NCBI GenBank assembly: GCA_022925895.1
Contig: JAKSYS010000217.1
Coordinates: forward strand, 1 to 64,000
Reading direction: 5' to 3'
DNA from: Fragilaria crotonensis
Taxonomy: Eukaryota; Bacillariophyta; Fragilariophyceae; Fragilariales; Fragilariaceae
DNA: 64,000 nucleotides
Positions 14,314 to 48,375 of the stretch are shown in pieces; position 1 is the stretch's first letter, and every line of letters starts with the position of its first letter. The notes beneath the pieces are model-generated. The model saw nothing but the letters and a program-made list of their open reading frames with translations. It was not told the origin of the DNA and ran no database searches. The position numbers were made by a program, and so were the translations under genes.

Positions 14314-15108
14314 ATGAATACTATTACGGTACAAGTAAATCAGATGGACGACAACGACGACGACGACGTAAGCTCGCTCAGCAATGTCAGCAGTGGCGTT
14401 GCATCAGCAATTCCCGCAAAGGGGATTGACTTGAACCGTTATCTTATAGAGCGATTCAATCCAGACACTCAGCCTCATGAATCAAGAACAGAACAAAATT
14501 CGGAGAAAGAGACTCGTTTCCTGTGTTTCAATCACCAATCGTTGGCGCGAGCGGGCGTTGAAGCTCAAGAACTTGTGCATGAGATGCAGCAATGGTGCCA
14601 GCAAGAGGAGCAGGAAATGATCAATTTTGAACGTCTTGCAGTGTTCTACCAGTGGCAACGAAGTATGCACATTGACTTTATGCCAATCCTTTGCCAAGAT
14701 GAAAGCAACTTGCGAGAGATTCCTCAAGAGCAAGAAAACGCACTGACGATGAAAAGGAGCTTGAAAAGGCAAAGAGATTACATGCTGATGCTGCGACGAA
14801 GCTCGCAAAGCCAGAGAGAAAAATGCGGAGCCTTTGCGGAGTATTCTGATTTAGGGAAGGAACTTGTCGTGGCTCAGATGGGACAAGCTGAGGCACAGAG
14901 GAAATTTTCCGAGGCTGGAAGTCGGTTGGTTCTTGATGACCTCCGGTCTGCACAGCACGCTTATAGAACAGCTGGTTTCAACGGCTGCACGTGTTGCCGA
15001 AGTGGTCGTTCATATGGCTACAACGAACATGTTTCAAGTCACAATTTACATTCATCTAACAAGTATAAGGCTATCCCGTTCCATGCCGTAACATACGCCG
15101 CATACTAG
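14314..15108 (+). CDS. Coiled-coil protein of unknown function
   Basis: ATG at 14314, acidic start (MDDNDDDDVSSLSNVSSG), then Glu/Gln-rich helical sequence (MQQWCQQEEQEMINFERL). Around 14,735-14,810 another frame reads DDEKELEKAKRLHADAATKL, a strong coiled coil. The shown frame resumes at KCGAFAEYSDLGKELVVAQM. So the true product probably needs two small frame changes, plausible as run-length errors in the A-rich tract at 14,818-14,824. After about 14,940 copy B suggests the better reading (PSGLHSTLIEQLVSTAARVA). The gene crosses the left edge of the 2.5-kb repeat at 14,808, which suggests that copy A sits in its original place. No domain recognised. Confidence 0.55.
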   Translation: MNTITVQVNQMDDNDDDDVSSLSNVSSGVASAIPAKGIDLNRYLIERFNPDTQPHESRTEQNSEKETRFLCFNHQSLARAGVEAQELVHEMQQWCQQEEQEMINFERLAVFYQWQRSMHIDFMPILCQDESNLREIPQEQENALTMKRSLKRQRDYMLMLRRSSQSQREKCGAFAEYSDLGKELVVAQMGQAEAQRKFSEAGSRLVLDDLRSAQHAYRTAGFNGCTCCRSGRSYGYNEHVSSHNLHSSNKYKAIPFHAVTYAAY

Positions 15109-21400: not shown

Positions 21401-24400
21401 CAATGTCCTATTCGGTTCCGACACTCAAAAATTGGTATCAGCAGAAAAGAGGGACCTGTCGTCGAATAATACACAACAAGTGACGGAGTACATCCGGGAG
21501 AAATATCGGATTCTGTTCCATCATCACAACGCCTTCGTTAGGAGCGCACAATTGACACAACCTGGCAATCGTCATGCTTTTGCAGAACGACTGGACCAAG
21601 ATGTTTTGACGGCAAGCTTGGCAGCAGCAGCAAAAGTGAAAAAGTTTGGAGAACCCGCATGGTCGGTGGAACTTGCCGAAGCTCGCAAACAAGTTGTTGT
21701 ACTGAAGAAGCATTTGTCAGCTCTTCGCACACACTACGACCATTCCAGTGTCTTAGCGCGCGAGATGGCTCAATTATCAACACCAGTGCCGTTGCCCCCT
21801 ACACCGCGTGAGTGTTCTGCGGAAATTCGCAAGGTTGAATCATCCATCAAGGCAATCATAGCTGAGAGCTATGAACGTCGAGATCAAGAACGCCAACGAA
21901 AAATTGCAGTACTCGAAGCGACTGGGAAGCAAGCGGACAAAGAATCAGCAACTCGGTTGAGACATATGAAAAAGGCCGAAGATATCAAGCAGTTATTTCG
22001 CAAGATTAGTGGCGTACGGAAGAACAAATTAAGACAAGGAGTAACGAGAATTGAAATCCCCTTGCATCCAGACGACAATCCCAAGATGTGTACTGAATGG
22101 CGACAGATAGATGTGCCAACTGAGATTGTTCGGCTATTACAGGAACGCAACCGGGCTCATTTCGGACAAGCAAAGGGAACACCCTTCACTGTTGCACCAC
22201 TTCTTGACGACTTAGGCTTTTGTGGGGATCGACCCTCGAGTACGAGGATTTTGGACGGCACATATCAACTCCGGACGAACGATGACGATGACGTGAGTAA
22301 AAATGTGAGACTCTTGTTGCAGCACATGACACAGGTTCACGAAATGGCAGCGTCCCCCTCGTTTCCAACCATCTCAATGGACGACTTCATGAGTAAATTG
22401 CGCGTCTGGTCGGAATCCACCACCACGTCTCCGTCAGGATTACACCTCGGACACTATAAGGCCTTGATTGCACGACATTCATACTCATCAGACCTCCCAG
22501 ATGATGAATTGACCCCAGAGTTCCGAAGAAACCGAGACGAGCTTGACATGATGCAAAACGACCTGCGGACTTTGCACTTGAATCTGTTGAATTATGCGCT
22601 TGAGCGAGGCTATTCGTATAAACGTTGGCAAACAATTGCCAATACAATCCTCTTCAAAGATCCGGATAACGTTCGGTTACATCGTACTCGAGTGATTCAC
22701 ATTTATGAAGCGGACTTTAATCTCGCCTTGGGAATCAAGTGGAGGATTCAGATGTATCAAGCCGAGGCCCTGGCAGCATTAAATGATGGGCAGTATGGGT
22801 CTCGACCACGACGAAATGCAACGGATCCAGTGTTCATCGAGGAACTCCAGTGTGAGATCTCTCGGGCCACTCGACGGTCAGTGGTCTTGATCAATTATGA
22901 TGCGCTTGCATGTTTCGACCGAATGATTCAAAATGCAGCAATGATTGTTAGTCGGAAGTTCGGCGTTCCGCTTCCAGTAACTCAGGCCAATGCAGTAACC
23001 TTGGAGAGCGGAGTTCAGGGTCCGTACAGAATTAGGCCTCGCTCCAAATGGTTACGTACATTCGGATAGCAAGCCCATCTATGGCACGGGACAGGGCAGT
23101 GCCAACTCCCCAGCGATCTGGTGTTTTCTGTCGAGTTGTCTCATGGATGCCTATGACACGACTGCAACACCTGCGGTATATTATTCACCGGATGAAAGCA
23201 CGTCAGCGTCTTTGGGATTAGTAGCTTTTGTGGACGATTGCAATGGGCAGGCGAACAATTTTTTAGCACCAGGATCTGATGAGACGCTTCGGGATATCTT
23301 GGTACGCACGCAGAAGAATGCACAATTGTGGAATGACTTACTCCACTCGAGTGGTGGCGCACTGGAATTATCAAGTGCTCGTGCCAAGTACTCCATTGGT
23401 GGTTTACACAGCAAGGAGCACCATTTTTGGCCCCAAAACAATCTGCTCACCAAGAAGTGTTGCGTGTCATAGATCGCGCCACCGGCACGACCCATCAACT
23501 ACCTTTACTGTCACCGTATGAGGCACATAAGACATTAGGGCACTATAAAGCACCAGCTGGGAATCAAACCGAACAATTTCGAAAACTCAAATCAAAGAGC
23601 GACGAGATAACGACCTTCCTGTGGACATGCCCCCTTACGCGACTCGAAACATGGACTTTTTATTATGCCTGCTACCTCCCAAGTGTTGGTTATCCACTAG
23701 CGTGCTCATCCCTTACACGACAACGACTGGATCAGGTACAACGGAAAGCGATGGCGATCATTGTCCCACGTTGCGGTTTCAATCGGCATACCAAGGGCGA
23801 GATCCTCTACGGTCCTTTGGAGTTGGGTGGGCGAACTTCCGTCATCTCTATGTTGAACAAGGCATTGGGCAAGTGTCCCTCTTTATGAGGAATTGGAGAT
23901 TGAAATCGACAGCGGGGAAACTCCTTCGCATTGCAGTCGGATGGTTCCAACACCAAGTCGGTACCTCATATTCAATTCTGGAACGAGTCGACACGGTCCT
24001 CCCCCATCTAGAATCCAAGTGGCTGGCCTCGCTACGCGACTTCTTAGCTTCCATACAATCAAACCTCCAACTTGACAATCCGTGCATTCCTAAGATCCAA
24101 CGTTACCATGACACACATATTATGGACGCTATATTGACTTCTGCGTGGTTCTCAGCATCGGAGATTCGACGCCTCAATTATTGCCGCCTTTACCTTCAGG
24201 CCCAAACAATTTCCGATCTCACAGAGGTTTCGGGGCGTTATCTGGATCGAGCGAAGTATGAAGGTCGCTTCTCGCATAATAGTAGCTGCACGCACGGCAT
24301 GTGGATCCACCAGCAATGCCCGTCGCCTGCGGAGTGGAAATTGTGGCAGCGAGCGAATTTGTTGTGGAGTGATGAATCTGGGAAGTTACATCAGGCATTG

Positions 24401-24780
24401 GGTCCATGGTTAGACACCATTGATAATCATCGTCAAACTCACTCAGCCTATCAACTGAACACGCGTTTGTGGCTGCGAGAACATCAAGATTACAGACTGT
24501 GTAAATTGTCGAACAGGACCGAGGAGGGACAGTACGGTTATTGGAGGACTGGAACACTGTGCGAATGGCAACAGATTCCTCTCGAGGCGTTTCCTGTGGA
24601 GGTTTGTCAAGTTGCCGAGGAAGAATGGACTGTAGTTGAGAGAAGCGTCGTTCGTGTTCCTCATCATCTGGTACATGCTGCAACGTTTGAACAATACGTT
24701 GAAGATCTTGAGCCGTGGGAGTATGACTTATTATCTCGCACGAACCTACCGACGGATCCCCTTTTCGGTCGGACTCGCCT
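21400..24780 (+). pseudogene. LINE ORF2: reverse transcriptase and thumb region
   Basis: After a helical linker (about 21,480-22,050) come the RT blocks: SGLHLGHYKALI (22,437), NTILFKDPDNVRLHR (22,646), YGSRPRRNATDPVF (22,795), NYDALACFDR with the first catalytic Asp at 22,899-22,901, IYGTGQGSANSPAIW (about 23,080), and AFVDDCNG with the catalytic Asp pair at 23,233-23,238. Then the thumb and a Trp-rich helical region to about 24,770. Frame changes lie near 23,045, 23,450, 23,870 and 24,770-24,785. Confidence 0.88.
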
Positions 24781-24795
24781 TATCTCAGGGAGTCC

Positions 24796-24879
24796 GTGGT
24801 GTCAGTGACGGGTCGGTTTGGCTTAAGCAAATGGGTGCGTTCGGATGGACGTTGAGCACAGATTTGGGAGAGCGACATC
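24796..24879 (+). pseudogene. LINE RNase H, first strand (left of the insertion)
   Basis: GVSDGSVW with the first catalytic Asp at 24,807-24,809, followed by GAFGWTLSTDLGER. The frame runs into the insertion at GAG CGA CAT C and continues in phase after the second ACATC at 37,118. Confidence 0.8.
24875..24879. repeat. Target-site duplication ACATC (left)
   Basis: ACATC at 24875-24879 and again at 37118-37122. Removing everything from 24880 to 37122 leaves the LINE RNase H frame uninterrupted (GERHLQPSDGSAEGMGPAPG). That makes this the likely 5-bp duplication made by the insertion. Confidence 0.75.
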
Positions 24880-25129
24880 AGAAGGTTGGGGCTTTTACAG
24901 TTGGACATAAATGGTACAATTTTGTAGTTTTCAATGGTACATTTCCTACAAAACTTCACATGTCTACAGTACATGCTGTAAAAAATTGTATCATTTTGAA
25001 TTTGAATGAATCTTTTTTGTTTGGCGCGTCACAAGTGCTACACATGACAAACTAACATCGCGTTTCCGTTACACTTTTCTTCCCTCCCCACCGGCAGTGA
25101 TTTCCCGCCCCCCCACAGATGTTACGACT

Positions 25130-28100
25130 ATGTATAAAATACACTCCAATGATAACAATCCACAGTCGTTATTTAAAAAGAATGCACACTACCTACATAA
25201 CGATCTCACCGCTCACTCCATTGCCTTACTCACAAGATCAGCATCGATGAATCCACCAGGCCGCAGGAACACTGACACACATTTGTCTGCTGATGGCAAG
25301 AAGCGAAAACACTCTAATCACTCTTGCACCACACTGAAGGAACGCTGTCCCTCCTGTGGTCGAGAGGTCAAGGTTGGTCAAATGTCACGACACCTTTCCA
25401 CCAATCAGCAATGCGTTGAGGACTACCCCAGGGATGGTGTCCCTGAATGCACCAACACCATTGTTCGTGCAAGTGTTCCAGCAAGAACTGCAATTGAGGG
25501 ACAATGCCTCCCGGACTCAAACAGGCACACCACCTCTCACTCCATCACAAACAGATTTGTGGAACCAGTTGACTCTGTCACACCATTCTTTCCCCGTACC
25601 GATGATGATTTTCCAATTGAATCATACAATGATGAGGATGTTCCACCAAGTGAATATCATGATCGCACCATATCTGAAATCCAGCCCAGCACCACAACAC
25701 AAGCAGAACAAGTCCACTTCACCACCACCCTAGCAGACGATACCATCCCCTCTCAACAGGATGGGACCACTGACTGTCACTCTACAGGCCAGGCTGACGA
25801 CTCCTTGCTTGCCGCATACGAAGGAGCCATCACCAGTATGAATGATGGGGGCTTGTCACTATCACTTTTTTCTCGTGAAGAACAGGTCCAAATTGACCTC
25901 CTGCAGACATTAAACAGACTTGGTGCTCCAATGAAGGCTTATGAGGAGGTGATGAGATGGGCTACGAGGTCAGTCCAGCAAGGACACAACTTTTGCGATG
26001 CACAGTTGACATCACGCAAGACATTAGTTTCGAAACTCAGTGCGCGTCTCAGTCGAGTTGCCCTTGAGCCCATACGTGCAGACCTGTATCTTCCATATTC
26101 AAATGTTACAATAAGCATCGTTTACTTCAACGCTTCAGCTGTGTTCACTGACCTACTTTCCTGTCCCCAGTTGAACCGTGATGAGAATTACATCTTCCAT
26201 GGTGACTTCAACCCTGATCACAGTCCCTTTGCCATCCCCTCTCGAAATGTTATCGGAGACATCAATACTGGTCGCTCCTATCACTACACTCACAGAAAGC
26301 TCTGTCAAAATCCCAACGACATGCTCCTTCCATGCGTCCTTGCAATAGACAAGACAACATGTGACATAAGCGGTTCGGGTCGCTTACCCATGGAACCCAT
26401 TACAATTCAGTACGGTCTCATGAAGCATGACGTCAGAAAGAAACCATTTGCAATGCGTGTTCTGGGATATATCAATTGTTCAACAACACATTCCCGTTCC
26501 AATAGCAATCCAAATAGGGCGACCCCTCTACCAAGGTCTCAAGAAGTTTCCGATGCAGCCTTGAGACTAAATGAGTACCACATGCAGGTCAAGTTTATCC
26601 TGGAACGATCAGGATTTCTTGCTTTGCAAGAACATGGTTTCAAATGGAACCTCAAGTATCATGGCAAGAGTTTCCAAACTGTCTTGCATCCCTACGTTCC
26701 CTTCATCATCGGCGACACAGAAGGGCATGACACCCTGTGTGGTCACTACAGGTCGCGTACATCTGGTGTTTCACAGTTGTGTAGGGTGTGTGAATGTCCC
26801 ACAGAAAAATCTGGCTGGTCCAAAGGCCGCTACTTCACAAGGCGAACACCAGCAGCTGTCAATGATCTGGTTCACCGTGGGAACCTTGAGGGTCTGAAAC
26901 TTAAGTCTCAGCACTACCTCTCGAATGCTTTTGACACAGTACGGTTTGGACAACATGACAAACGAGGTATATTTGGCGCCTGTCCAGGAGAGATTCTTCA
27001 CCTTGTCTTGATAGGGTGGTTCAAGTATGTCGTGGAATCCTTCTTTGCTCAAGCGGGGAAGAATAGCATTGCCGTTCAGAAGTATGTTACCCTCTGTCAT
27101 GACATAGGCCTTCAACTCGACAGACAGAGTGATCGCAATGTCCCTCGAACATCGTTCAGAGATTTCTCCACTGCATCTAATATCCCTGGCAACGAATACG
27201 CTGGCTGCCTGTTCATCATGCTCATATCCATGCACACGTCGCGATATACAGAGATCTTTGCCAGATCTCGTTTAGCAAAATGTCAGAAGGCTGCCGACAA
27301 ACACCTAGGTAACCCTAACTTCATGGAAGACTGGAAGGACCTTCTCACAAGCTTACTGGAATGGCTTGCTTGGTTGAAACAACCTCAGATAACTCGTGTG
27401 TCAGCACAACGATCAGTTTTTGCCACCGCACATCTGATGCGCCTTGTAAAGTTTGTGGCTCCACGATTCAAAGGCATGTCAAATAACACAATCAAGATGC
27501 ATTTGGTGCTTCACATCCACGAAGACATCATTAACTTCGGTGTCCCAGAGGTGATGAATTCTGCCTACGCCGAGTCATCCCATCGTCCGATAGCAAAGTT
27601 CACCGTCAGGAACACTCAGAAGCGCCACAAATCATTCACATTCCAGGCAGCAAATCGTTATGTCGAGAACTTGTCCATTGATCAAGGAAGCCAGGTTGTT
27701 TCAGATGACAGAAAGAAGAATACATTAACCGCAACAGGAGTGGCAAGAGCGTGGACTGGTAAGGAGTTCACCATAACATTGGACGACAATAAGGTTCCAA
27801 TTTGTGAATGGAGATTGGACAAGAAGAAAAAGTCACAAGTTCCAAGTGTCCGTCCAATCCCTGAAGATCACGTGCTATCGATGATAGCAAACCACTGTCA
27901 TCCCCATGTCTTCCCACCAGTCATCCACTGTCAAACCGAATTTATCACTGACGAGGGTCAAATTTATAGAGCACATCCTTCCTACCAAGATGCTCCATGG
28001 TATGACCATGTTCTCCTTGACTGGTCAGAGTGTGACGATCCACTTCCAGCCCGCATTTGCACTTTCATCAATCTGTTTAACATCAAGGCAAACGCATCTA

Positions 28101-28573
28101 TCTGTTTCCCGGAGTCTGGACAGGAGACAGTCCCATGCCCCCCCGGGCTGTACGCTGTGGTGGAATCATACGATCCAATCCCACCATTCACCAGTGATGC
28201 AGACGACGAAAGCTTTGATGCCGAAGATGATACCCCTCCCGATCTCTTCCAACACTACACCAAGACTCTCCTGTCAGACAACATCTCACCCAAGCTATAC
28301 CTTGTCAATGTCAAGGCTATCGTTGGCCCAACAGTGGTTGTCAGGGATGTTGTGGGACATCCCTCGGATGTGTCGGTTTCAGATAGGCGGTCCCAAGACA
28401 CCTATATATTCATGGCAGTGCGTCGTAAGGAATGGGCATCTCGCTGGGAACATAAGGTAGACCTTGCATATCAGGAGAAGAATGAGGATGGTGCGGAGTC
28501 AACTGAGGATGAGGATGACAGTGCGACCATCAAGGACAGACGGATGTACAAGAGGATGCATGGCACAGCATAG
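25130..28573 (+). CDS. TNP2/CACTA- or Plavaka-like transposase
   Basis: Uninterrupted frame. ATG 25130 chosen as the first ATG; a second candidate is 25247 (MNPPGRRNTD). Order, numbered from 25130: a C2H2-like finger near residues 70-90 (CPSCGREV...SRHLSTNQQC); an acidic Thr-rich region; a helical domain; a core with LPCVLAIDKTTCDISG (Asp407); a Cys cluster CRVCECP; FGACPGEILHLVLIGWFKYV (His624); and YAESSHRPIAKFTVRNTQKR (Glu815). The spaced Asp, His and Glu blocks and the late E-x-x-H-x-x-x-K-x-T-x-R segment recall the DDE core of CACTA/Plavaka transposases, which cut and paste DNA. The C-terminal 300 residues are acidic and lack a known motif. It is the longest intact frame in the window, so the element may be recent. 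Confidence 0.75.
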   Translation: MYKIHSNDNNPQSLFKKNAHYLHNDLTAHSIALLTRSASMNPPGRRNTDTHLSADGKKRKHSNHSCTTLKERCPSCGREVKVGQMSRHLSTNQQCVEDYPRDGVPECTNTIVRASVPARTAIEGQCLPDSNRHTTSHSITNRFVEPVDSVTPFFPRTDDDFPIESYNDEDVPPSEYHDRTISEIQPSTTTQAEQVHFTTTLADDTIPSQQDGTTDCHSTGQADDSLLAAYEGAITSMNDGGLSLSLFSREEQVQIDLLQTLNRLGAPMKAYEEVMRWATRSVQQGHNFCDAQLTSRKTLVSKLSARLSRVALEPIRADLYLPYSNVTISIVYFNASAVFTDLLSCPQLNRDENYIFHGDFNPDHSPFAIPSRNVIGDINTGRSYHYTHRKLCQNPNDMLLPCVLAIDKTTCDISGSGRLPMEPITIQYGLMKHDVRKKPFAMRVLGYINCSTTHSRSNSNPNRATPLPRSQEVSDAALRLNEYHMQVKFILERSGFLALQEHGFKWNLKYHGKSFQTVLHPYVPFIIGDTEGHDTLCGHYRSRTSGVSQLCRVCECPTEKSGWSKGRYFTRRTPAAVNDLVHRGNLEGLKLKSQHYLSNAFDTVRFGQHDKRGIFGACPGEILHLVLIGWFKYVVESFFAQAGKNSIAVQKYVTLCHDIGLQLDRQSDRNVPRTSFRDFSTASNIPGNEYAGCLFIMLISMHTSRYTEIFARSRLAKCQKAADKHLGNPNFMEDWKDLLTSLLEWLAWLKQPQITRVSAQRSVFATAHLMRLVKFVAPRFKGMSNNTIKMHLVLHIHEDIINFGVPEVMNSAYAESSHRPIAKFTVRNTQKRHKSFTFQAANRYVENLSIDQGSQVVSDDRKKNTLTATGVARAWTGKEFTITLDDNKVPICEWRLDKKKKSQVPSVRPIPEDHVLSMIANHCHPHVFPPVIHCQTEFITDEGQIYRAHPSYQDAPWYDHVLLDWSECDDPLPARICTFINLFNIKANASICFPESGQETVPCPPGLYAVVESYDPIPPFTSDADDESFDAEDDTPPDLFQHYTKTLLSDNISPKLYLVNVKAIVGPTVVVRDVVGHPSDVSVSDRRSQDTYIFMAVRRKEWASRWEHKVDLAYQEKNEDGAESTEDEDDSATIKDRRMYKRMHGTA

Positions 28574-28784
28574 CGTAACACAATTCTACACCCATTAGTG
28601 AAAAACAGATGAATCAGATGTCCAACGGCTTTCAGAACTGTCACCACCATCAGATTCATATCCCTCCAACCCTGTCGTTTCCGGTTGTGGAACCTTCGCA
28701 CGGATTACATAAGGTATCGCTTTCGTATCCCTCCCATGGCACCAGGCTGCTTTGCTCTGACAACCTCCAACTCCACTTCAGGTC

Positions 28785-31700
28785 TCAAGAACTTTTTAAC
28801 AAAGTCCTCAATAGCTCAGCAAAATCCGGATCATCGAAGACATAAGCATAACTGCAAGAAAGCAGCATTGCAGGTTGTAACGTCAAGTGATCAAAACTGA
28901 CCGCCTGTATCATCGTGAGCGTTTCCAACACTCCCACATCGCCCGTGCTGTGATTAACATAGCCACTCCCCACATCATGAAGAGTCTCGTACTCCAAGTG
29001 TACATCGATTGATGCACCCGCGTTTGAAGGCACTCTCGCCATGAGCTGGCGTCGGTCATCATCTGTCCAGTATGGCAGCGCTTCTCCATGACGCGTTGAT
29101 GCCCTTGCAACGTAGTAATGTTGGGTTTCACGTGAAAATGCATGAAACCCAACAACCACTGTCTCGTATGCACCAACAACATGACCCATCATCACCTGAA
29201 AGTATAGCTGTAAGTGCTCGCAAGGAACCACCAACCGTTTCCAGGTTTTCAGCACCTGTAGCGTCACCTGCCATGGGTAAAGCAGATCTTCCTTCTTTCC
29301 CTTCCTTCCTCCAACGACCATCCTGAAGCCCTTCACCCACCCAAGGACATGCTCATAATCTTGCTTCGGGTCTCCCGTGCAACCCCTCCCACCGTTACCA
29401 AATTTGCTCATAACGTTCTGCTTGGGCACTTTATCTTGAGGCAGACTCGGCGCTTTTCCATTGCACATTCCCAGTGGATGCGCATGTCTGACATCATACT
29501 CCAGCACCTCTGGCATCCAACTTGGGTTTCGTAAACTCCACATCATGTTGCACGTAGCACTCGCTCCAAATCCAGGCTGCACATCACATAGTCTTGTGGT
29601 GTCCTCCGAATACCCAACACCCTGGGAGCATCAGCATTTGTCACGGACGTTGTGTCTGGCAAACGACGGCGAGGACTAGCCAACATCCGGTCTTCATGCG
29701 AACGATCTTGACCAGCGTCCTCATTGGAGCGCTTTTTACCGTGATCCTCAACGTCCATGCTCCTCTGGCGCTCCTCATCGTCAAGCGTCACGATTATGTC
29801 TCGATTGACAGGCCACCGTATCTCCGTTTCCGAAACCAACCGATCATGCCATTTCCGATGAGGAGGTGGTCCACCTGGCATTTTCCTGGGTGTATTCTTT
29901 CTCATGCCATGAGAGTATTGTCCTTGACCCGCGTCAACTTTCCCAGAATCCTGTGTCACATCACGTGGCTTTTGTGAAACCACATGATCGTTGCGGCCAT
30001 CGTGGAATCCGTCGCGTTCTCTCACATGGGTCTGTTCCACCATCTGATGTTCTTCCAAGCCCATCAAGTGGCTAGGGGAACTTCCATAATCAGAATGGTA
30101 GTATACGGAGTCCACCCTGCTGATACGAAGATGGACAGACGTAGGAGGATGTTTCACTTCATCAGCACATCCCGAAGCCGGGTTGACGACCAATTCACCA
30201 CAACTCCTGGTGAGAAGACCAGTACTGCTGCTGTCTTCCGCCAGCTCATCACAACGTGCAGCATGTGGAACAGGAGGCTGCTCTTCACAAACTGCTGCAG
30301 GTGCAACAGTTTGTAAAGCTTCGCCTGCAAGGAGTTGCCTCATCAGCCACCGACGTCTCAACAGCGACATCATCAGCACCAACCAAATCCACCGGATTGG
30401 TGATGTCACCGTCATCGAATGGCTCTACTTCAATTCCAAGGTCGACACTACCCTCATCCGAGCAGTCACTGGCGAGGCTGTTGTCCTCCATGATTCCGCG
30501 TCATCATCAGGCGCAACACTGACGGATGTTTCATCAACGTCCATCTCCACGTCAACCACAGCGCCACCAACACCCACCACTCCCGTCGAAGGACATTCCT
30601 TGGCTTGAGCCGCATGCACCACATCATGCGTTGAGGTGCCTCCAGATGTCAACAAGTTCGCCTTCGCATCATCACTGCGATTGCCAACGCACGTTCAGCC
30701 TCTGTCAGAAGCTTGTTCAGGTCACGAACAGACCTATCCGCAACACTGACTGCCCTCTTCGCTTCCTCTAAGGATGCAACAGCCACATCAAGCTCCCCGC
30801 GCAACGTGAGCACCCTCTTGGAAAGTTCACCAACTTCCAACTTTGCAGAACATTGGTACGATGCAGCTGCCTTGCGCGTCCCATACCGAACAATAGCAGT
30901 CTTTGCAGCAAAGAATGTTCCATACACATGTTTTCCCTCAGCACGCCTCATCATTGAAGTGCAGTGCCTGATGAGCCTGCCATCCCAGCTGATCATGACA
31001 CCATGTTTAAGACGTATAGCCATTCCGTTGTACGTTGGACCCTTCCCATCTCGTTTTCCGTACACATTCGGGAGAACAAAGTACCAGTCGTCAGTACTTC
31101 CAGGATCATCCTCGGTCCAGATGCTAAAACCCTGAGAGGCATCATTAACATCATAGTGTGACGCATTGGAAAGGTCGACACTGACATCCATGGTGTTCGT
31201 AATGTTAGCAAAACATCCATCTCCAGCCATCCCATGCCTGGGAATGACCCCACCATCCACTTCCAGATCCTGCATTGTCCTTAACACAGCTGGAATCGAA
31301 ACAGCTGCAAGATTTGCGGATGCCACCACAGCATCCCTCAGTAACGACTGGGCACTCTCCTCAGAGGACGTCACATAGCGGGTTCTGTGCACACCATCAA
31401 GGCATATCCTAGTACCAATTGGGTGCATGGAACCCAGGTCACCTTTACCGGCTCTCGCCGAGTTTTGGTTACGTGATCGAACCGTCTGTGCATGTTTCCT
31501 GATGTCACCAAGCATCTTATCAGCAGCCGGGCCGAGTGTCGGTAGGTATCGAATCTGTATGACACTGTCCCGCGATACAGACATCTTCCCGGTTTGCGAA
31601 CCCGGGTGGTTGACTTGCACCGAAACACACACATCAACGTCACCATCGGAGGGATCGATCACAAGACTCTCGCGTATGCTGATGACCCGGTGCAGAAATC

Positions 31701-32944
31701 CAGAGACGTAGTGTCGACAGCCACGTTTCGCCGAAGGGGACGCCTCCAAACCAGCGTTGTATGCCCTGCGAAGATAACGCCCCTCGACCATGGCGTAATC
31801 CTGACCCTCCACATGGTCAGGAGCAAGACGAGGCCCCTCCTCATCAGGACATTGCCGAGCATACATGACCTTCTTCATTGCCTTAGGGAATGGAAGGAGT
31901 CTCGACGTAATTCCCATCGCATCAGAATCCAGAAGGAAATTTGAGGAACCACGAGAAATTCTCCACTTCCATATTTTGTCCACGTTGCCATCCCACAAAC
32001 GGCTAACGTAGCCACCTTTAGCGAAACGATTGATCCTAGATCCATTACGTACAATCCGAAGCCAATTCATGTCCATCGGAATGTGAGTGTTCGGAACGCC
32101 GACCGACTCGTGTCTTTTCTCACGATGACAATAGTAAACACCAGCCTCTGGCAGAACAACCACAAGACATCGATATCGCTTGTCATACTTCGCATCGAGG
32201 AATTCGGCATCACCCTTAGCTTCACAGGGTGTCCACCACCTCCTTACCCGTCCTACGCCTAGGAATCCTCACCGTACGTGCGATAACGGCATCCATCATC
32301 ACAATCTCCAGGTAGTCAGGTCGCGTGACGACGGAATGGATATCAACTCCATCATTCATGTGATCGCGCATTGCAAGTGACACATTCGTCAAGCCATACA
32401 TTTCCAGGAAAGTGCGGTGAATGACCTGAACATTCGTGTTCAACAATTGAGCACTACCAGGAATCCCAAACACAGGGTCGTCAGGGACAGGCTTCCCCTT
32501 CATCGCCGACAACACCGTCTTCCAAGTTTGATGGAATCTGTTGATGTCGGTGCGAGGCAAACACTTTGCGATGACATTAGCAAACTGAGTCTTCGAAGGA
32601 TGCCACGCTTTGCGAGACATCGGATCACCACCAGGAGCCTTCCCTTCCAAGTCACCAAAGACACGTGGATTGGAAGAGCCCGCGATGAGATTACGAGCAG
32701 TCTCACCCGGAAGGGTCCTACCACCAAAGAGAACGAGTGGCTGTTCCTTGAAAGGAACCGATCCACCGGTTCCAACCTTCCCATGCTTGGAGCTCCGATC
32801 TACGTCGTACTCGAGGGGCTTCATGTGCGCAGCACCACCGGCCTTCCTTTTCCTTACTATGTTGGAGGAACTTTCATTATTCACAATAACAGATGGATTA
32901 TGGCGCAAAGGAGAAGAACCGTCCTTCCGTTGACTCCCCGACAT
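28785..32944 (-). CDS. Large accessory protein with putative 2OG/Fe(II) dioxygenase core
   Basis: Read as one gene from ATG 32944 (MSGSQRKDG) to the stop at 28785. Its stretches 32944-32222, 32220-30649, about 30655-30285 and 30415-28785 follow one another with small frame changes. The second stretch has no ATG near its beginning and reads back into the first (KGDAEFLDAKYDKRYRC), which supports one protein of up to about 1380 residues. The central part has SNASHYDVNDASQGFS (His codon 31158-31156, Asp two codons on), then WYFVLPNV, LKHGVMISWDGRLIRHCTS (His at 31005 and 30966; Arg between). This HxD...H...R layout fits the double-stranded beta-helix 2-oxoglutarate dioxygenases; TET/JBP enzymes of fungal transposons are the known analogy. 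Then a coiled coil, acidic linkers, and an unknown 250-residue domain. Function unproven. Confidence 0.5.
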
Positions 32945-33280
32945 GATCTCGTCACCAAAAAGCCTGACGCAGCACAGTATGAACAGCACACTGATGGTGA
33001 TGTTGTTCAGGGACAGAACAACCTTAAAACCCGGGAAGAGAATCCGATGGAACTTGAGGTGACCACTATATGGTGAGTCGATCAACAAGTGACCCTTCAG
33101 AAATCCGTCGCCAGAGTTGAAACCAAAGGATACTCCAGATGATCACGACAAGCACCACTTTATGGTGAGTGCTGCCTGTCAAATTACTCAACAATGAGCA
33201 AGAAGACCGTGAAAATGGGAACGTATCCAACCACAGCTACTACACTTTCGCTTTGTGGTGGTTGCTGCCGCCAAAAAAGT

Positions 33281-33892
33281 CACTCCAAATGGGAGAACGT
33301 TCAAATGTATAAAATTAAAGTATAAAATTCTCCAACAGAGTGGGATGGCTTCCCGTCACGATGCAACGGTTCCGAATTGCTGCCTGAAACTTGGCAATCC
33401 TGATGGGACAGCAAGCCGCAGGCTCCTCAGTAACCCGCACTTGTAGAATGGAAACGCAGAACTCCACAAGTTGCAACTCCAAATGGGAGAGCAAGCTTGA
33501 CGTTCAAAACGTAAGAATTCTAAATGGAGAACGGAGTGTGCAACCTGATTATCAGTGTGGTCGCAGACGGGAGCGCAACGCCAGGAGCCACGTCAAACTG
33601 TGTTTTCAACCTTTGTGTTGATGCCGCCTTGATGCGACAAGACAACGCCGATCGGCGTGGACGCAAACGGATCAAAGCACAACTGTAGTCACTTGCGACG
33701 CGTGGCTGCGAACCGTTCCAAACGCAGCCGCAGTCACTTCCAACGCGTGATAGAAAATCCTGTCAATCAGGTGTTCACGTCCGAAAAGACCGACGTCGAC
33801 ACACTCAATTCGCAATCTCGCAACTCCTAATGGGAGAGCTTCAACTGCTTGCCAGTAACCGATCAAACAAAGTCAACTCCTTGATGGGAGGA
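33281..33892. repeat. Dispersed short hairpin repeat inside the DNA transposon
   Basis: A motif close to CAACTCCAAATGGGAGAGC recurs at about 33,281, 33,391 (weak), 33,473, 33,513 (weak), 33,820 and 33,873. Its core CTCC-N4-GGGAG can fold. It lies in the noncoding space upstream of the minus-strand accessory gene and could be a set of protein-binding sites. Confidence 0.6.
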
Positions 33893-35213
33893 CAGTGATG
33901 ATCAAAGAAACCAACTTTTGTGCTGTGATTCGCAGCGCAAAAGCAAGAAAACCAAGAGAGGGAAACAAGATTAGCACAAGCACTTATTTTTGCAGGCGTG
34001 TACTATGCCAAAATAAGTAGCATAAGGATGTGTTGTAGCAAGAATCAGATGTGGGACTTCGATTTTTTCCTTAAGTAAAGGAGATAGCAATGTGAATATT
34101 AAGTGATTAACTATGTGTGACTTTATTTTGTGCATACTACATACAGTCGTGCACAAGCTCTGACGGCGTGACGTACTTAAAGTAACAGGTCTTGCACATG
34201 ATGTTTGTTGATAATTCATCAACAACAAAGACTTAAGTATAATTAATAAAGCAAAAAATATAACATGTGAATCAGAAAATAGCAATAGAAGAGACTAGTA
34301 ACACGGTGTTCAACATTGAGTGACATGTATACTCCATCTACCAGTTACATGTGTTATTGCAAAACAATGATAGTGACACATATGTATGGGAAATAGGACA
34401 TGTAGAACGTGCGTACTGACAATAGCGATTCCTCGTACGCATAGTATCAGATGTACTAGTTTTAGAAAGTAGGAATATTTGCTTCCGTTGGAGTACACGT
34501 AGTAGTAGGTAGCAGTAATAAGCGTACTGTCATTGGTTCAAGCTATATGTGCTGTACGTAGCAAATGTGTACTACTGTGGTACAGGATAACTACATACGG
34601 AATGCGGAGTTGAGTTATTGGTACCTGGTACTGTAGAGTACGTCAAGCACTAATAGTACTACCTAGGTAGTATGTGTTTCGATGTTGTTCTGCGACAAAC
34701 ACCAGTACAAAAGACCAAAAACGATAACAGCTTTGGTACAGCGTACCATTAATTTTTGCTGTTGTGAACCAGCAAAGTATGCGCAGCATTGTTCAAGCGA
34801 CGTCATAGTTCATAGCACTATATTACTGGCGCAGTTTCAAAATTAAAAAATGCGTCATGCAGTAATGAACAAATTAAAACATACAGTGTATGTTCAAAAC
34901 AGTGACATATACTGTACAAGCAGTATATGCAGCGTGTAGTTAGATGTTTTGGATTCAAACATGTAGATGTATACTACATGTTTGAAATAATAGTTAATTT
35001 AAATAAAATGTGGTACATCTCACTGCTAAGTATTTGAATACTTGAAATAAATGACTACAACATGAATAAATATGAAACACAGCTACGTACATTGTCACGT
35101 AGGGTATACGTAGTCAAAGCTGAACGACTCGATAGCAATAAAATGCAAAGCTTAACATAAAAATTCACAACACAAAAGGCACTTAAAACGCATCTTAAAC
35201 ACCATTTTGAACA
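33893..35213. other. Noncoding AT-rich interior of the DNA transposon
   Basis: No gene supported. AT-rich, with a GTAC island near 34,500-34,760. It should hold the promoters of the two flanking divergent genes. Confidence 0.6.
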
Positions 35214-36774
35214 ATGGCAACAGCAAAGGGTAAGAAAGCAAGGGCAAAGAAAAGGGGAACTCCAATAGTAAGAGGTGTGCTTGTAGCAAACAATGCAAAC
35301 ACAGGAAGCCCTGGTAACAACAGGAGGGTTAGTGGCCATAGAAATGGTGAAGTTGAGTCACCATCAGTACTGGAACGACTTGGACAAAGTAATTCTCAGG
35401 AGGCAAACGATGGGGGCGGTTTGGAAAATGCACGCGGTTCTCCATACAGAGATGCTGCATTGACCACTCCGTCGTCCACTCCTCCTACGGGAGTGGACGC
35501 CCTTCCAATTGGAGGGGTTACCAACGCAGCCGTGAGAGTATTACAGCAACAACGTAGTCTTATGGCAGGACCACAGATAGGTGACAGATCGGGAAATGGT
35601 GGACGCATTTCTACGTTCAGAGATGCTGCAACAACAACCAATCTGATGGAATCGCTCAGACAACAAGTCCAAGTAAGGAGGGAAACGCCCCTAACAACGA
35701 CAACTACTGGAAACGGCGGACCACTACGAAGGGTTATTGGTGATCAAGCTTCCCAGAATCGTGATTTTCCATCGGCAACTACTGATGGGTTGATGGAGGA
35801 GGTTGATGAGAATACCCCACCTTACATTCATGCTGCGCTTGGTAGGGATGAAGATGACGATCTGATGGACAACACAGAAACACAACTGTCTGGGAAATCT
35901 CTGTCATACAGGAAGGCCAGACATTGTCAACAAACACATGTAACGCATCGTATACAGAACTTGGTAAAGAAAGTCATCTTCAGAAAACTCAAGTTTGTGA
36001 CCAACGATGCTCTGTTCTGGAAGGCGATGAAGGTTGTCATTGACGCTGAGGATCCTGTGGAGCAAAGTCGGTTTGTGAAGATATACAAAACATGTGTCCT
36101 TCAGAGTCTGAACACAAAGAGGAGTACATGTGAACAGGCGGGTGCAAAGATTGCTAGGGAGCTCCTTATTGCAAAGAATCATCCTATTGGGTCGAGAGCC
36201 CCCATACTCAGTGGAGACGCTTTGCAAGTTGAGAAGGTCAAGAACTGATCACGAGAGAGGCATTCCACTGGTTTATTGGAGAATTTCTTGAGTGCGTCTC
36301 TGGTAGGAGGGTATGGGGAAGGAAAAAGTTTACCCACAAGGTGTCGGATCCAATGGAAAGGGGAAGTGCAGAGAAAGTTGTGACTGTGTCAGATGAAGCG
36401 TTTGCCATTCTTGTTTATGAAAACTACATTGATAAGTGGTTGCGGAAATACACCTGTGAGCGACAAGGGGTACAGGGTGAAAACACAAGTGAGATTGAGA
36501 AGAGAATTAAAGGAAGATACACTGCAGGAACAACAACACGAGCAGCAAACATAATGTATGGGGGGTGGAGTGATGAGGGCCTCATCCGTTCAATCAGTTG
36601 TGCAGATTGGTGGCAATCGACCGACAGAATGAAAATGCAGCGCAGATGGAGGAACAGGTTCTTCAGAGGCTGAGAGAACAGAGGTATGGAATTGGTGGAA
36701 TTAATGATGGCACGGAACAACCTGATGAATCAATGCTGCGATGGGAGCCTGTGGAGGCATTTTGTGAATTGTAG
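35214..36774 (+). CDS. Third accessory gene of the DNA transposon
   Basis: ATG 35214, very close to ACAATGG context. First a basic N-terminus (KGKKARAKKRG), a long Ser/Thr/Gly-rich disordered region, then a helical conserved part (RIQNLVKKVIFRKLKF). The frame closes at 36248, but the next frame continues directly (GQELITREAFHWFIGEFLEC) and carries VSDEAFAILVYENYIDKW and YTAGTTTRAANIMYGGWSDE. A second shift at a short T run near 36,590 leads to NQLCRLVAIDRQNENAAQME and a stop at 36772-36774. So the true product is probably about 519 residues. No named domain; the basic head suggests nucleic-acid binding, and the GGWSDEGL-(I)RFN segment looks like a conserved helical motif. It is presumably an accessory transposition protein (inference). 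Confidence 0.55.
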
Positions 36775-37117
36775 AATAGGAGAAACTTCAATGCAAATCT
36801 GTCACCGTATAAATATGAATAGTCACTGTTATGTTGTTACACGTAATAATTTTAAGTCAGATGGTAAACTGCAATATTACGTGTGAGTAAAAAATGGCGA
36901 ATTCGAATATAAATGTTACAGAGCTGCACTGGACTCAAAATTTTTTGTTTCTTTGGGTCGGCAAATGGTACACTTTGGTGCAGAGAAACAAAAAATTGTG
37001 AATTGTAAAAAACATACTACAGTGCTCAGACAAAATTATTGAAGTGTACAAAATAGTTACAGGCGTGTACTGGACTCAAAGAAAAAATGTACAGTGTAAA
37101 ATTTATTTTACAGTGTA
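36775..37117. repeat. Right subterminal region of the DNA transposon
   Basis: AT-rich, with CTGGACTCAAA twice (36,929 and 37,070) and AATGGTACA once (36,964; two more near the left end). Arrays of short subterminal motifs that bind transposase are usual in CACTA-type elements. Confidence 0.55.
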
Positions 37118-37995
37118 ACATCTGCAGCCTTCTGATGGATCGGCTGAAGGGATGGGCCCAGCCCCAGGAGCAAATCCTAATTCGTATCGGTCTGAAGCGT
37201 ATGGAATGTTGGCCATGTTGTGTTTTTTGAAACGCCTCGCAGAGTTTACGTACCAACATGAACCGTGGTGCGGCACACTCGCGACCGATAGTTTGAGTCT
37301 GGTGGAGACGGTTCTTGGCATTAAACGGAAACCATCTGTGATGGAGGCCGCGGTATCGGAACCGGAACCCGTGCAGCTTCCATTGGATCCTCTGAGCCCA
37401 GAATGGGACTTGATCGTTAATATCCGTCGGTTGCTTTGCGAAATGCCGGGGCTAAGCCTGGAACATGTACGAGGTCATCAAGATCGTCGCGGCACCTATC
37501 AGCGATTGAGTCTCTTGGCACAACTCAATGTGGATGCCGACGACCTGGCCAACACTTTCCAGCGTGAGTATGGCGCGATTCGACCGCTTGCCTTGTTGAC
37601 AGAGGAGGCTGGCGTTCACTTGATTACACCGAAGGGAACCGTCACCACGAAATATAAAACAGCCATTCGACATCAAGCGACCTATGGTCCATTATTAGCT
37701 CATCTTCAAGCACGAAATGGATGGAACGCTAGTGCGACAGAACGGATCAATTGGAAAGCGCACGCTGCATGCCTCCACAAGCGCATCAAGCGACGAGATC
37801 ACTACATCAAGTTAGTTCAAGAAATACTACCGACTAATCACCGGCAGCATAGACGGGATCCTAGCCGCAGAGGGTGTCCGGTGTGTCCGTGTGGTGATGA
37901 GGATTGGGACCATATTCTGCGATGCGCGCATTCGAGTCGAGCGGCGTGGCGAGCGAACTTACTCACGGTCATTGGAAAGACTTGTGCCAAATGGG
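37118..37995 (+). pseudogene. LINE RNase H remainder and zinc-binding tail (3' portion, truncated)
   Basis: Continues the RNase H from 24,879: MGPAPGANPNSYRSEAYGML with the catalytic Glu at 37,194-37,196, LATDSLSLVET with the next Asp at 37,287-37,289, and LEHVRGHQDRRGTY with the catalytic His region near 37,470. Then LNVDADDLAN, a linker, and a Cys/His cluster GCPVCPCGDEDWDHILRCAH (about 37,877-37,936), which fits the zinc-binding tail of such LINEs. The element stops abruptly at 37,995, inside coding sequence and without a 3' end, where repeat copy B begins. Confidence 0.85.
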
Positions 37996-38282
37996 AAGCC
38001 AGAGAGAAAAAATGCGGAGCCTTTGCGGAGTATTCTGATTTAGGGAAGGAACTTGTCGTGGCTCAGATGGGACAAGCTGAGGCACAGAGGAAATTTTCCG
38101 AGGCTGGAAGTCGGTTGGTTCTTGATGACCCCTCCGGTCTGCACAGCACGCTTATAGAACAGCTGGTTTCAACGGCTGCACGTGTTGCCGAAGTGGTCGT
38201 TCATATGGCTACAACGAACATGTTTCAAGTCACAATTTACATTCATCTAACAAGTATAAGGCTATCCCGTTCCATGCCGTAA
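37996..38282 (+). pseudogene. 3' fragment of the coiled-coil gene (copy B)
   Basis: Corresponds to the last part of the gene at 14314, beginning EKKCGAFAEYSDLGKELVV and ending LTSIRLSRSMP at 38,282. By chance it is in phase with the LINE RNase H frame, so 37,152-38,282 is one open frame of 376 codons that encodes an artificial fusion. In this copy the 95-residue tail is uninterrupted and helical, which makes it a better guide to the true C-terminus. Confidence 0.7.
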
Positions 38283-38342
38283 CATACGTCGCATACTAGG
38301 CGCCATTGCATGATTTCTGGCGCATCCAGGAAGTAATGTTGA

Positions 38343-39367
38343 TTAGGGTACCGGTACCTGCAGCTGAACAGAGAAGTAGCCGTTATAACCAGGGAAAAAG
38401 GAGGCCGGATACCAATGTTGAGCTCCCCGCGTAATTAATGCCACCAACGACCCAGACTTGACAATCGACTACTGTCATGGTGCTGATCGGCATTTTCACC
38501 TCCCAGACGCGGTGGCCCGTACCAAACGAATCCATCGCCTCCAAAGTAGTTGGGATTGAGGACGCAGGAGGGGGACTGGGCATTGATCCGGAAAGCCGAA
38601 ACTAGCCCGTTCAGGGTCCCAGACTGTCCATCATTACCCCAGTTCGCTTGGCCTGTCGCTTGCTGGAATTCGACCCCGTTACCCGGGTAGCTATTATCCT
38701 CGTTCCAAACACCAAATCCCAAGAGGTTGCCATTCGAAGTAGCCCCCTCTTGACTTGTCCAGCCGGTGATATCAAATGCCCCATAGATGAAATTGGCATC
38801 GGCTTTGAAATAAGCCGTGCCGCCACCGTTGCCGATCGTGGCGGTGGCTGCGCCGGTCCATTCATTGGGGCTGATTATCCCGTCGATGTTTGGGGGGTCG
38901 ATTACATTCACAGGAGAGTTCACACATCCAGTGGCAGGGTCGCAGCTGTCCACCGTACAGGCCTTATTGTCGTTGCAATCACGCTCTTTTGGAGGATTCG
39001 TAGGAGCACGCGTTGGAAACTTCGTTGGAGGGCGCGTTGGAGCGCGCGTTGGATAGCCTTTGCCTCCTTTCAATAGACGCTCCTCCGGATCGATGATGAG
39101 GCAAGCGCTCGTTGGAGCGCGGGTCGGAAACGTCGTTGGAGCGCGGGTTGGAAACTTCGTTGGAGCGCGCGTTGGAGCGCTCGTGCCCTTGCCTTGTTTA
39201 AGCAAACGATGCTCGTCTTGATCGATGCTGACGATGCTGTCCTTTTCAAGCTCGTCGCCAGTGGTGATCGAGTGGGGGGGGATGTTGTTCTGGGCACAGG
39301 CAGTGTCACCGAGAATGGCAATGGCCGCGACGAATCCAATGGACAGAGTCGGAATGGAAAGCTTCAT
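38343..39367 (-). CDS. Secreted protein with PT-rich linker and CBM9-like domain, copy B
   Basis: Start ATG 39367, signal peptide (MKLSIPTLSIGFVAAIAILG). Two blocks of [KFP/TFP]-TRAPT repeats separated by IDPEERLLKGGKG; then CNDNKACTVDSCDPATGCVN (four to five Cys); then the beta-rich domain from IDGIISPNEW through FGVWNEDNSYPGNGVEFQQ to the end. The frame is intact down to about 38,570, where a run of five G (four in copy A) throws it off. The C-terminus by comparison with copy A is VWVVGGINYAGAQHWYP...QVPVP, about 341 residues in all. Extracellular or frustule/wall-associated protein is likely; the carbohydrate-binding assignment is tentative. It is transcribed against the coiled-coil gene. 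Confidence 0.75.
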
Positions 39368-40551
39368 GGTCACAGTGAATACCTTTCTGTGTTGTGCGTG
39401 TTGTGTTGTCAGTGTTGTCAGTCGTCAGAGCAATTAAAGAGAACCCAACTGAATGGATCTATGCAGCAGCAGAAACAATGTTCCACTCCAGTACTTACGA
39501 GTAGATTGGGCTGACGACACGATAACTCGACGGCTTTTTCCCAAGTTATGAGAAAAGTGGATGCGAAATGAAAGTGGTGGTGTTCTCAATATTTGGATTG
39601 AGGATGGTGGCAAACATTTGGGGTTCGGATTTGGTTGACTTGATTGTTCGCTGGCATCGACACAAACGCTAACGATGGGCTAATGTTGTCATCGGTACTC
39701 CGAGACAAGATTGAAGTGCAGAAAGATCATCGATGGAAGATGGATAAAAAAGAACCGAGCAATACACTATAAATGAATTATGCATCAACCGGTACTTGTA
39801 CCAAAGTTTAACGGGAAGATACAGGAAGCTCTTGGCGTCTTCCTCTAGCAAAAGCAAGTTGCTCGAAGGAATGAGATCCAGCGTCACTCGAGATTGCGGA
39901 GAACTTCAGCTTGCTTTTTGCTAAGGAGACGTCACATAGGCAGCTCTAAATAACCATGAGCTAATGTTGTCATCGGTACTCCGAGACAAGATTGAAGTGC
40001 AAAGACGGATGAAAAAGAACAGAGCAATACACTATAAATGACTTATGCATCAACCGGTACTTGTACCAGGTGTCGTTGCTAATGGGACCAGGCTGGCGAA
40101 TTAGTAATTAACTCCGCAACATCAACGTCCGTTTGCACAGGTCAAGTGCTGATACTCGGCACATGTAAATGGCTCATCAAAGTTTAACGGGAAGATACAG
40201 GAAGCTCTTGGCGTCTCCCTCTAGCAAAAGCAAGTTGCTCGAAGGAATGATATCCAGCGTCACTCGAGATTGCGGAGAACTGCAGCTTGCTTTTGCTAAG
40301 GAGACGTCACATAGGCAGCTCTAAATAACCATGAGCTAATGTTGTCATCGGTACTCGAGACAAGATTGAAGTGCAAAAGATGGATAAAAAGAACAGAGCA
40401 ATGCACACTATGACATACAACTAGCTACCATGTACCCTTGTACTACTGGTACCACATAAAAATGGCTTTGAACCAATAGTTTCACAAGAGTTTTGACTTA
40501 CCAAATCTCGGCAGAAACACATAAATGTTTTACTAACAGTTCGTATCATAG

Positions 40552-46551: not shown

Positions 46552-48375
46552 ATGTTCATTCGTCGAGCCGCAGCGACTGTATTGACTCGCAGAGTCCCTT
46601 TGCAGATGCGTTCCTCTCTAGTCGCGGCTAGTCGAGTCAACGTGCAAGCACTATCCAGCGGGCACCGTTTCCTTTCAGCTCAACCAGCGGAAGCGGCACC
46701 TGTCGTTGAGACCGCCATGTTTTGCCGTCAGTGCGAACAGACATCGGAACACATTGCTTGTACTACTCTGGGTGTATGCGGCAAGACCCCTGAAACAGCT
46801 GCTGTTCAGGATGCACTTGTTGAGGTCATCAAGTCGGTTTCCTCCTGGTGTGTTGCTGCCCGGGCTGCTGGAGCCACGCCAGAAGAAATGCACAATGCCA
46901 ACGTGTGGACTCTCTCCGCTGCCTTTTCGACTCTCACAAATGTTAACTTCTCAGAAGATCGCATTTCTGAATTTATCAAGCAAGGCATGCAGATCAAGAG
47001 GATCCTCGAGAAATTGGTTGCTACTAAGGGGGGAGCTGCACCGACCGAACCTGTGGCGGCACTACAGGTAGAGGATAATGATGATCTCGAACAATTTGGC
47101 AGGTCCGTATCAGTTCCTAATCGTGCGGCTGCCATGGGTGATCAGTCGTGCTTCTCTCTTAACGAAGTCGGTACTTACGGGCTCAAGGGTGCATGTGCGT
47201 ATGCAGCTCACTGTTCACAATTGGGATTTATGGACGAAGAAATCATGAAGAGCATTCACGAAATTTGGACCAAGTTGGCATCCAACGAGCCTGATATGCA
47301 AGGGCTACTAGCCACTGCCCTTCGTGTCGGAGCAGTCAACGCGCAAGTTCTCGCACTCTTGGATCAGTCGCATGCTACCAATTTTGGAGATCCGGTGCCA
47401 TCTCCAGTCCGACTGACGGCGGTTCAAGGGAAGGCTATTCTGATCTCGGGCCATGATATGGCGGACTTACATGCTCTGCTCCAACAGACAGAAGGGACTG
47501 GTATCAACGTCTTCACACACGGTGAAATGCTTCCCGCCCATTCATATCCTGAACTTCGGAAATTTGGCCACCTAGCAGGAAATTTCGGCACTGCCTGGCA
47601 GGCCCAAAAGATTGAATTTGCCAGCTTCCCCGGCCCAATCGTTGTGACTACCAACTGCATCCTCGAACCACGACGCGCGTACAAGAATCGATTGTTCACA
47701 ATGAATGAAGTCGGTATCGACGGTGTCGAGCATGTCAAAGATCGCGACTTTAGCAAGGTTATTGAGTCAGCGCGACACGAAAAGGGGTTCCCACGAACTA
47801 TTGAACCAGCTCGATACCACACAGTGGGCTTTAACCATCGAGTTGTCCTCCCCATGGTAGATCAGATCATTGATGCTGCCAAGTCTGGTGCTCTTAGCCG
47901 GATCTTCTTGATTGGCGGTTGCGATGGAAGCCAGTGGGACAGGAGCTATTTCACTGAATTGGCGGAAGCCACACCGGCGGACTCCCTCATCTTGACCATG
48001 GGCTGTGCAAAGAATAGACTTATTCATTCTCCCAAGCTTCACGGCGAGACCCTTGCCAATGGACTTCCTCGTGTGCTTGATATGGGCCAATGCAATGATT
48101 CGTATTCTGCCGTCGTCGTTGCACTGGAACTCGCCAAGGCTTTGAATTGTTCTGTAAACGACTTGCCACTCTCACTGGCGGTCAGCCATTTGGAGCAAAA
48201 AGCTGCGGCTGTACTCTTGACCCTGTTAAATCTCGGTGTAAAGAACATTCGACTTGGACCTAGCTTGCCAGCATACATTGATGAGACTGTCATGAAGGTC
48301 CTGGTTGATAATTACAATCTCATGCCCACCGGTGACCCGAACCAGGATATGAAGGCCATGATGGAAGGAAACTGA
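46552..48375 (+). CDS. HCP: Hybrid-cluster protein (hydroxylamine/NO reductase), mitochondrial
   Basis: 607 residues, intact, ATG 46552. An Arg-rich, acid-free start (MFIRRAAATVLTRR) is a likely mitochondrial presequence; the mature part begins near residue 50. Proximal cluster: Cys58, 61, 70, 76 (Cx2Cx8Cx5C), the spacing of Desulfovibrio-type HCP with a 4Fe-4S cluster. Hybrid 4Fe-2S-2O cluster ligands all present with near-canonical spacing: His301 (ISGHD), Glu325 (THGEM), Cys369 (TTNCI), Cys457 (GGCDGS), Cys485 (MGCAKN), Cys514 (GQCNDS), Glu548 (HLEQK). The family reduces NO to N2O and hydroxylamine to ammonia and acts as a nitrosylase in bacteria. In algae it is thought to serve nitrogen metabolism or low-oxygen nitrosative stress. 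Divergent diflavin reductase may be its electron donor (inference). Confidence 0.96.
   Translation: MFIRRAAATVLTRRVPLQMRSSLVAASRVNVQALSSGHRFLSAQPAEAAPVVETAMFCRQCEQTSEHIACTTLGVCGKTPETAAVQDALVEVIKSVSSWCVAARAAGATPEEMHNANVWTLSAAFSTLTNVNFSEDRISEFIKQGMQIKRILEKLVATKGGAAPTEPVAALQVEDNDDLEQFGRSVSVPNRAAAMGDQSCFSLNEVGTYGLKGACAYAAHCSQLGFMDEEIMKSIHEIWTKLASNEPDMQGLLATALRVGAVNAQVLALLDQSHATNFGDPVPSPVRLTAVQGKAILISGHDMADLHALLQQTEGTGINVFTHGEMLPAHSYPELRKFGHLAGNFGTAWQAQKIEFASFPGPIVVTTNCILEPRRAYKNRLFTMNEVGIDGVEHVKDRDFSKVIESARHEKGFPRTIEPARYHTVGFNHRVVLPMVDQIIDAAKSGALSRIFLIGGCDGSQWDRSYFTELAEATPADSLILTMGCAKNRLIHSPKLHGETLANGLPRVLDMGQCNDSYSAVVVALELAKALNCSVNDLPLSLAVSHLEQKAAAVLLTLLNLGVKNIRLGPSLPAYIDETVMKVLVDNYNLMPTGDPNQDMKAMMEGN

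Follow-up and report, generated by a model that had tools for sequence, protein, structure and literature searches.

The window analyzed here comprises the first 64,000 nucleotides of contig JAKSYS010000217.1 from the diatom Fragilaria crotonensis (assembly GCA_022925895.1, forward strand), and it contains a Plavaka-type DNA transposon of 12,262 bp (24876–37137, no strand assigned), the extent of which is given by terminal repeats and by a rejoined flanking reading frame. The element carries three genes: a Plavaka-like DDE transposase (25130–28573, plus strand), a dioxygenase-like gene (28785–32944, minus strand) and a third gene of unassigned family (35214–36774, plus strand). A first-pass annotation of this DNA had proposed one element with ends at 24880 and 37117; one element does hold all three genes, with its exact ends at 24876 and 37137.

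Each end of the transposon is marked by a 10-bp terminal inverted repeat, CATCAGAAGG on the left (24876–24885, plus strand) and CCTTCTGATG on the right (37128–37137, minus strand). The left copy is identical to the reverse-complemented right copy, and these outer 10 bp lie within a 43-nt imperfect inverted pairing of 72% identity. The repeats are bordered by the two copies of a GA target site duplication (24874–24875 and 37138–37139, likewise unstranded). The only two perfect matches to the terminal 10-mer in the 64-kb window are the element ends themselves, with no further perfect copy of an element end; as six matches with at most one mismatch were found against 5.44 expected, the terminal repeat draws its meaning from where it lies and not solely from being rare. 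Removal of the element together with one GA (the element and the two right-hand bases) furnishes a 460-codon open reading frame (ORF) that spans the junction and contains GAFGWTLSTDLGERSAEGMGPAPGANPNSYRSEAYG. Dropping 0, 1, 3, 4 or 5 bases instead leaves longest ORFs of 397, 387, 396, 386 and 459 codons, respectively; given these near-equal alternatives, the rejoined frame is, taken by itself, evidence of modest weight. In combination with the terminal repeats it fixes the element ends firmly. Along with the GA duplication, repeats and frame bear out the proposal of a single transposon, and the minus-strand gene, which could have fallen outside the ends, lies between 24876 and 37137.

The split flanking frame (left part 23549–24875, right part 37138–38282, both on the plus strand) is interpreted as the RNase H-like portion of a retroelement of the non-long-terminal-repeat type. 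Across the junction, the joined frame displays an RNase H-like D...E...D...H...D pattern. The joined 169 residues have no Pfam match at E 1, and the right part has a weak zf-RVT match (E 0.017) that falls under the cut-off. A second fragment of the C-terminal part of the split retroelement is present at 14806–15088, with 89% identity over 45 residues and 100% over 49 residues relative to 37119–38279. Immediately to the right of the transposon, positions 38986–39195 hold a repeat array with 12-bp steps.

The transposase is encoded by an unbroken plus-strand ORF (25010–28573) of 1187 codons from stop to stop, with its first ATG at 25130; the longest ORF across 200 dinucleotide shuffles of the element reaches 293 codons, in keeping with the intact long transposase that had been annotated. 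Numbered from 25010, the protein possesses an N-terminal CxxC...H...C arrangement (residues 113–135), followed by D447, D569, C591xxC594, H831xxxH835 and E855, with the catalytic D, D and E assigned by eye. The CxxC and HxxxH pair is thus located between D569 and E855, and the order D/D/CxxC/Hx3-4H/E is described for EnSpm, Transib, Plavaka and their kin (Kojima, PMC12730594). A point against leaning on this pair is that CxxC...Hx3-4H alone was found in 1394 of 20,000 shuffles of the D569–E855 segment.

Pfam was run on eight versions of the transposase that include the catalytic region, and the Plavaka profile PF18759 was recovered for four of them: 26225–27757 (E 8.3e-5), 25865–27757 (E 1.5e-5), 26021–27640 (E 1.2e-5) and 26225–27055 (E 1.1e-5). 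The top-scoring piece reaches 25.2 bits, slightly short of the curated cut-off of 26.3 bits, in a single stretch covering profile positions 84–271 of 325; there was no PF18759 match for the full-length versions 25010–28570 and 25130–28570, nor for 26021–28570 and 26345–27592. PlavakaB elements are described as having CATCA..TGATG ends and 2–3 bp duplications, and every TET-carrying fungal Plavaka family is a PlavakaB (PMC12730594). The termini of the Fragilaria element read CATCA..TGATG and its GA duplication is 2 bp long. Because the ends, the duplication, the motif order and the sub-threshold profile match agree, we assign the element as PlavakaB-like with high confidence, which preserves and sharpens its earlier ‘CACTA/Plavaka-like’ label. 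A KDZ (Kyakuja, Zisupton) identity was dropped, since duplications of 7–8 bp are at odds with the 2-bp duplication and the ends found here.

The dioxygenase-like gene is large and convergent with the transposase gene, as annotated, and is not intact. It consists of six overlapping or adjoining minus-strand ORFs running from 33142 to 28788 (33142–32225, 32268–30652, 30694–30428, 30500–30288, 30424–29546 and 29630–28788), with at least four breaks that are frame changes or stops. Its 539-codon member (30652–32268, minus strand), which exceeds the longest ORF of every one of the 200 element shuffles, harbors an HxDxxD motif (H371, D373, D376) followed by W384, H435 and F453. The third gene is present on the plus strand, and is broken in this copy into three ORFs in changing frames (35211–36245, 36233–36670 and 36577–36771); the first two, which were the ones searched, had no Pfam, PHROG or NCBIfam match. 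Breaks in the two genes may reflect decay, assembly errors or introns. Counting four breaks in the minus-strand gene and two in the third gene, none of the six falls in the transposase, an outcome with a probability of 0.06 under a uniform distribution of breaks. Inside the transposon and upstream of the minus-strand gene, a 20-nt motif resembling GCAACTCCAAATGGGAGAGC occurs three times (33279–33839), and these copies are possible binding sites.

The dioxygenase-like features of the 539-codon ORF are arranged in the order SNASHYDVNDASQGFSIW, GVMISWDGRLIRHCTS and GKHVYGTFFAAK. H371, D373 and H435, assigned by motif only, fit the HxD...H iron triad of TET/JBP enzymes. The position of D376 corresponds to NgTET1 D234, CMD1 D350 and TET2 N1387, all of which contact the cytosine N4 (PMC7854593, PMC11040006). 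In a by-eye comparison to NgTET1 as printed in the PDB (HKDNLDITPSSLFYF, GDVLFFKGNEYKHVVA and GWRIGLVYFAHK), two glycines, 12 and 5 residues before the distal His, coincide, as does the F-A-x-K end; HYDVNDASQGFS also aligns by eye, gap-free, with the PDB-printed TET2 segment HRDLHNMQNGST.

We queried how often such a pattern arises by shuffling the 539-codon ORF 20,000 times. HxDxx[DN] followed by G-x6-G-x4-H, present once in the ORF, was found in 10 shuffles; requiring in addition an aromatic residue preceded six positions earlier by a basic one lowered this to a single shuffle, and requiring a Trp at +13 in place of the basic and aromatic residues lowered it to none. HxDxx[DN] alone was found in 2003 shuffles. 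For the pieces of the minus-strand gene strung together (1307 residues), the corresponding counts in 20,000 shuffles were 5869 for HxDxx[DN], 4481 with the distal His, 53 with both glycines, none with the basic–aromatic pair, and one with Trp at +13 instead.

Several observations weigh against a dioxygenase. The motif test was designed once the sequence had been read, some of its positions coming from papers and the glycines from NgTET1, so that the small shuffle counts overstate the case; without the glycines, HxDxx[DN]...H appears in 1123 of the 20,000 shuffles of the 539-codon ORF. The position of the 2-oxoglutarate-binding Arg (NgTET1 R289) is His447, six residues ahead of the aromatic one and with Lys446 adjacent, and the ORF lacks the motif if the basic residue is required to be Arg. 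No dioxygenase match for the gene was detected in Pfam, PHROGs, NCBIfam, PADLOC or a PDB sequence search, the short ORFs 30694–30428 and 30500–30288 having been left out of the family searches; rows such as SASP_gamma (E 0.03) and PDB 3h9m (E 0.26) are chance-like. Unguided local alignment to NgTET1 performed at chance level: the domain score was reached in 2856 of 5000 shuffles for the core and in 1855 of 5000 for a 172-residue segment, the whole-ORF score was reached in 195 of 1000 and 412 of 1000 shuffles, and other ORFs of the window outscored the 539-codon ORF. The best local alignment leaves the two HxD motifs unpaired; MAFFT, aligning the ORF and NgTET1, likewise failed to pair them, and its output was not used. 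AlphaFold models, built without relatives, were uninformative (predicted local distance difference test scores of 30.0 and 30.2), and the gene is broken in this copy. The lack of a sequence signal is not decisive, since the fungal PE-type proteins themselves reach CMD1 at an HHpred E of only 1.4 (Kojima, PMC12730594). Dioxygenase identity thus stays at the level of the motif, plausible but unproven. Of the ‘possible 2OG/Fe(II) dioxygenase core’ in the first-pass annotation, the HxDxxD...H motif endures; profile, pairwise and fold support do not accompany it, and the 2-oxoglutarate Arg reads His.

Taken together, a model for the locus emerges to which we give about even chances: a PlavakaB-type transposon split a retroelement, and its minus-strand gene most likely encodes a divergent TET/JBP-like Fe(II) dioxygenase that would ease silencing of the element’s own copies. 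A cut-and-paste element would have inserted into an older retroelement, within its RNase H-like part, duplicating the 2-bp GA. The transposase, for which the ends and an intact ORF are in place, would bind and cut the CATCA...TGATG ends. The minus-strand gene would be kept by the element family, its product oxidizing or otherwise altering 5-methylcytosine on element copies. This role is suggested by the motif together with the fungal precedent, in which the function is likewise putative. Because the minus-strand and third genes are broken here, active enzyme for this copy may have to come from other copies.

CACTA elements possess a DNA-binding partner protein of the transposase. The minus-strand product could be an accessory protein of another fold, for example one of this kind, with the HxD...H resemblance arising by chance; we regard this as a serious possibility with somewhat less than even chances. 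Such a protein would show the lack of profile and pairwise dioxygenase support, the ready recurrence of bare HxDxx[DN]...H in shuffles and the His at the 2-oxoglutarate Arg position, whereas the rarity of the fuller motif, with both glycines and more so with the basic and aromatic residues added, argues against this reading.

Relatives of the element were sought in viral, prokaryotic and phage collections. None was found in IMG/VR by protein search and six motif patterns, in GTDB by two motif patterns, or in phages by tblastn with the 539-codon ORF as the only query; for the third gene, one pattern in IMG/VR, the only collection searched for it, returned no relative. The motif patterns pulled seven loci (L001–L007). 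In tblastn, ten query pieces detected no relative at E ≤0.01 among L001–L003, and across L001–L007 nothing fell under E 0.039, the best row being the retroelement piece against L002; the best row for a transposon gene was at 0.10. Loci L004–L007 have near-identical stretches with DTEGVDTLCG in common and, apart from these, do not look related to the transposase. That this single copy acquired the minus-strand gene in one capture, from among cellular genes or from another mobile element, and that it is not regular cargo of the family, would fit the want of relatives in these collections and is nonetheless improbable, as the gene sits between the transposase and the third gene inside exact terminal repeats and, by eye, none among 25 of the 100 inverted pairs in 22000–40000 clearly frames it alone.

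If the minus-strand product is a TET/JBP-like dioxygenase, its co-substrate is a further question, for which the Chlamydomonas enzyme CMD1 provides a comparison. In CMD1, W358 occupies the space of the 2-oxoglutarate Arg and vitamin C is used, and the Arg at the C5-carboxylate position does not bind the co-substrate (PMC7854593). With CMD1 offsets taken from the residue numbers in that paper, the two proteins share H, D and D at +0, +2 and +5; W384, the Trp at +13, corresponds to W358, and T437, two residues after the distal His, to T399. A Phe falls at the position of the base-stacking F416 if one gap is allowed. Unlike CMD1, the spacing from the HxD Asp to the distal His is 62 residues here rather than 50, and five of the eight fixed-offset positions other than iron ligands differ (S335, T337, V342, T354 and I356). 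R410 is replaced by His447 and R418 by Ala with a one-residue gap, and by Val448 and Lys without it. Three or more identities out of eight (here D350, W358 and T399) would arise about 1.2% of the time when residues are drawn at random from the domain composition, a figure to be treated as a hint, not a test. The Trp at the blocking position and the lack of a C5-carboxylate Arg raise the idea that an algal Plavaka carries a CMD1-like enzyme that dispenses with 2-oxoglutarate and attaches a bulky group, derived from vitamin C or otherwise, to the element’s own 5-methylcytosine. We consider this a long shot; if true, the transposon would re-mark its own DNA with a new base, rather than merely demethylate it.

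The closest known counterparts are fungal PlavakaB elements with PE-type TET/JBP genes in Agaricus bisporus and Gymnopus confluens (PMC12730594). The diatom element resembles them in its CATCA..TGATG ends and 2–3 bp duplication, in the CxxC and Hx3-4H layout of the transposase, and in the presence of a second gene whose HxD/E...H motif is of the iron-binding type, HxE in the fungal PE-type and HxD here (PMC12730594). Unlike the fungal PE-type TET/JBP cargo, the minus-strand gene resembles no known TET sequence or profile to a measurable degree. Fungal KDZ elements with TET/JBP genes offer a similar pairing of a large DNA transposon with a TET/JBP partner gene. The earlier suggestion that a different transposase class would make this a new case is outdated, since Plavaka with TET/JBP has been published for fungi (PMC12730594); the novelty could lie in the algal host and the enzyme type, not in the pairing. 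Plavaka elements are described from other non-fungal hosts, Amoebidium (PMC11244446) and Auxenochlorella (PMC12633428), and the excerpted text of these two reports does not mention a dioxygenase partner. Giant KDZ and EnSpm elements are described from the brown alga Ectocarpus (PMC12477816), and giant EnSpm elements with accessory genes from red algae (as cited in PMC12477816). No algal case of a Plavaka or other transposon with a TET-type dioxygenase was found in the accessible portions of the open-licence literature searched.

The diatom Phaeodactylum is said to confine methylation to transposons (PMC12344493), which would supply a target for such an enzyme. Were the dioxygenase reading correct, transposon-borne enzymes acting on DNA bases would cease to be a peculiarity of fungi and would represent a response to methylation at which transposons arrive repeatedly, in this case by way of a divergent enzyme from a distant lineage. 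Given the exact ends and the short list of catalytic residues, this reading is open to direct testing, both in related genomes and in vitro.

Elsewhere in the window, a bacterial-code scan found no transfer RNA and Rfam gave no match. A Copia-type reverse transcriptase and an AAA_16 protein are also encoded. The ORF at 61156–62694 has a GCR1_C match just below the cut-off (E 1.2e-4) and may be a Crypton-type tyrosine recombinase element. An intact hybrid-cluster protein (Prismane, E 1.3e-142) is encoded at 46552–48375, with an N-terminal extension of ~55 residues that resembles an organelle targeting sequence.

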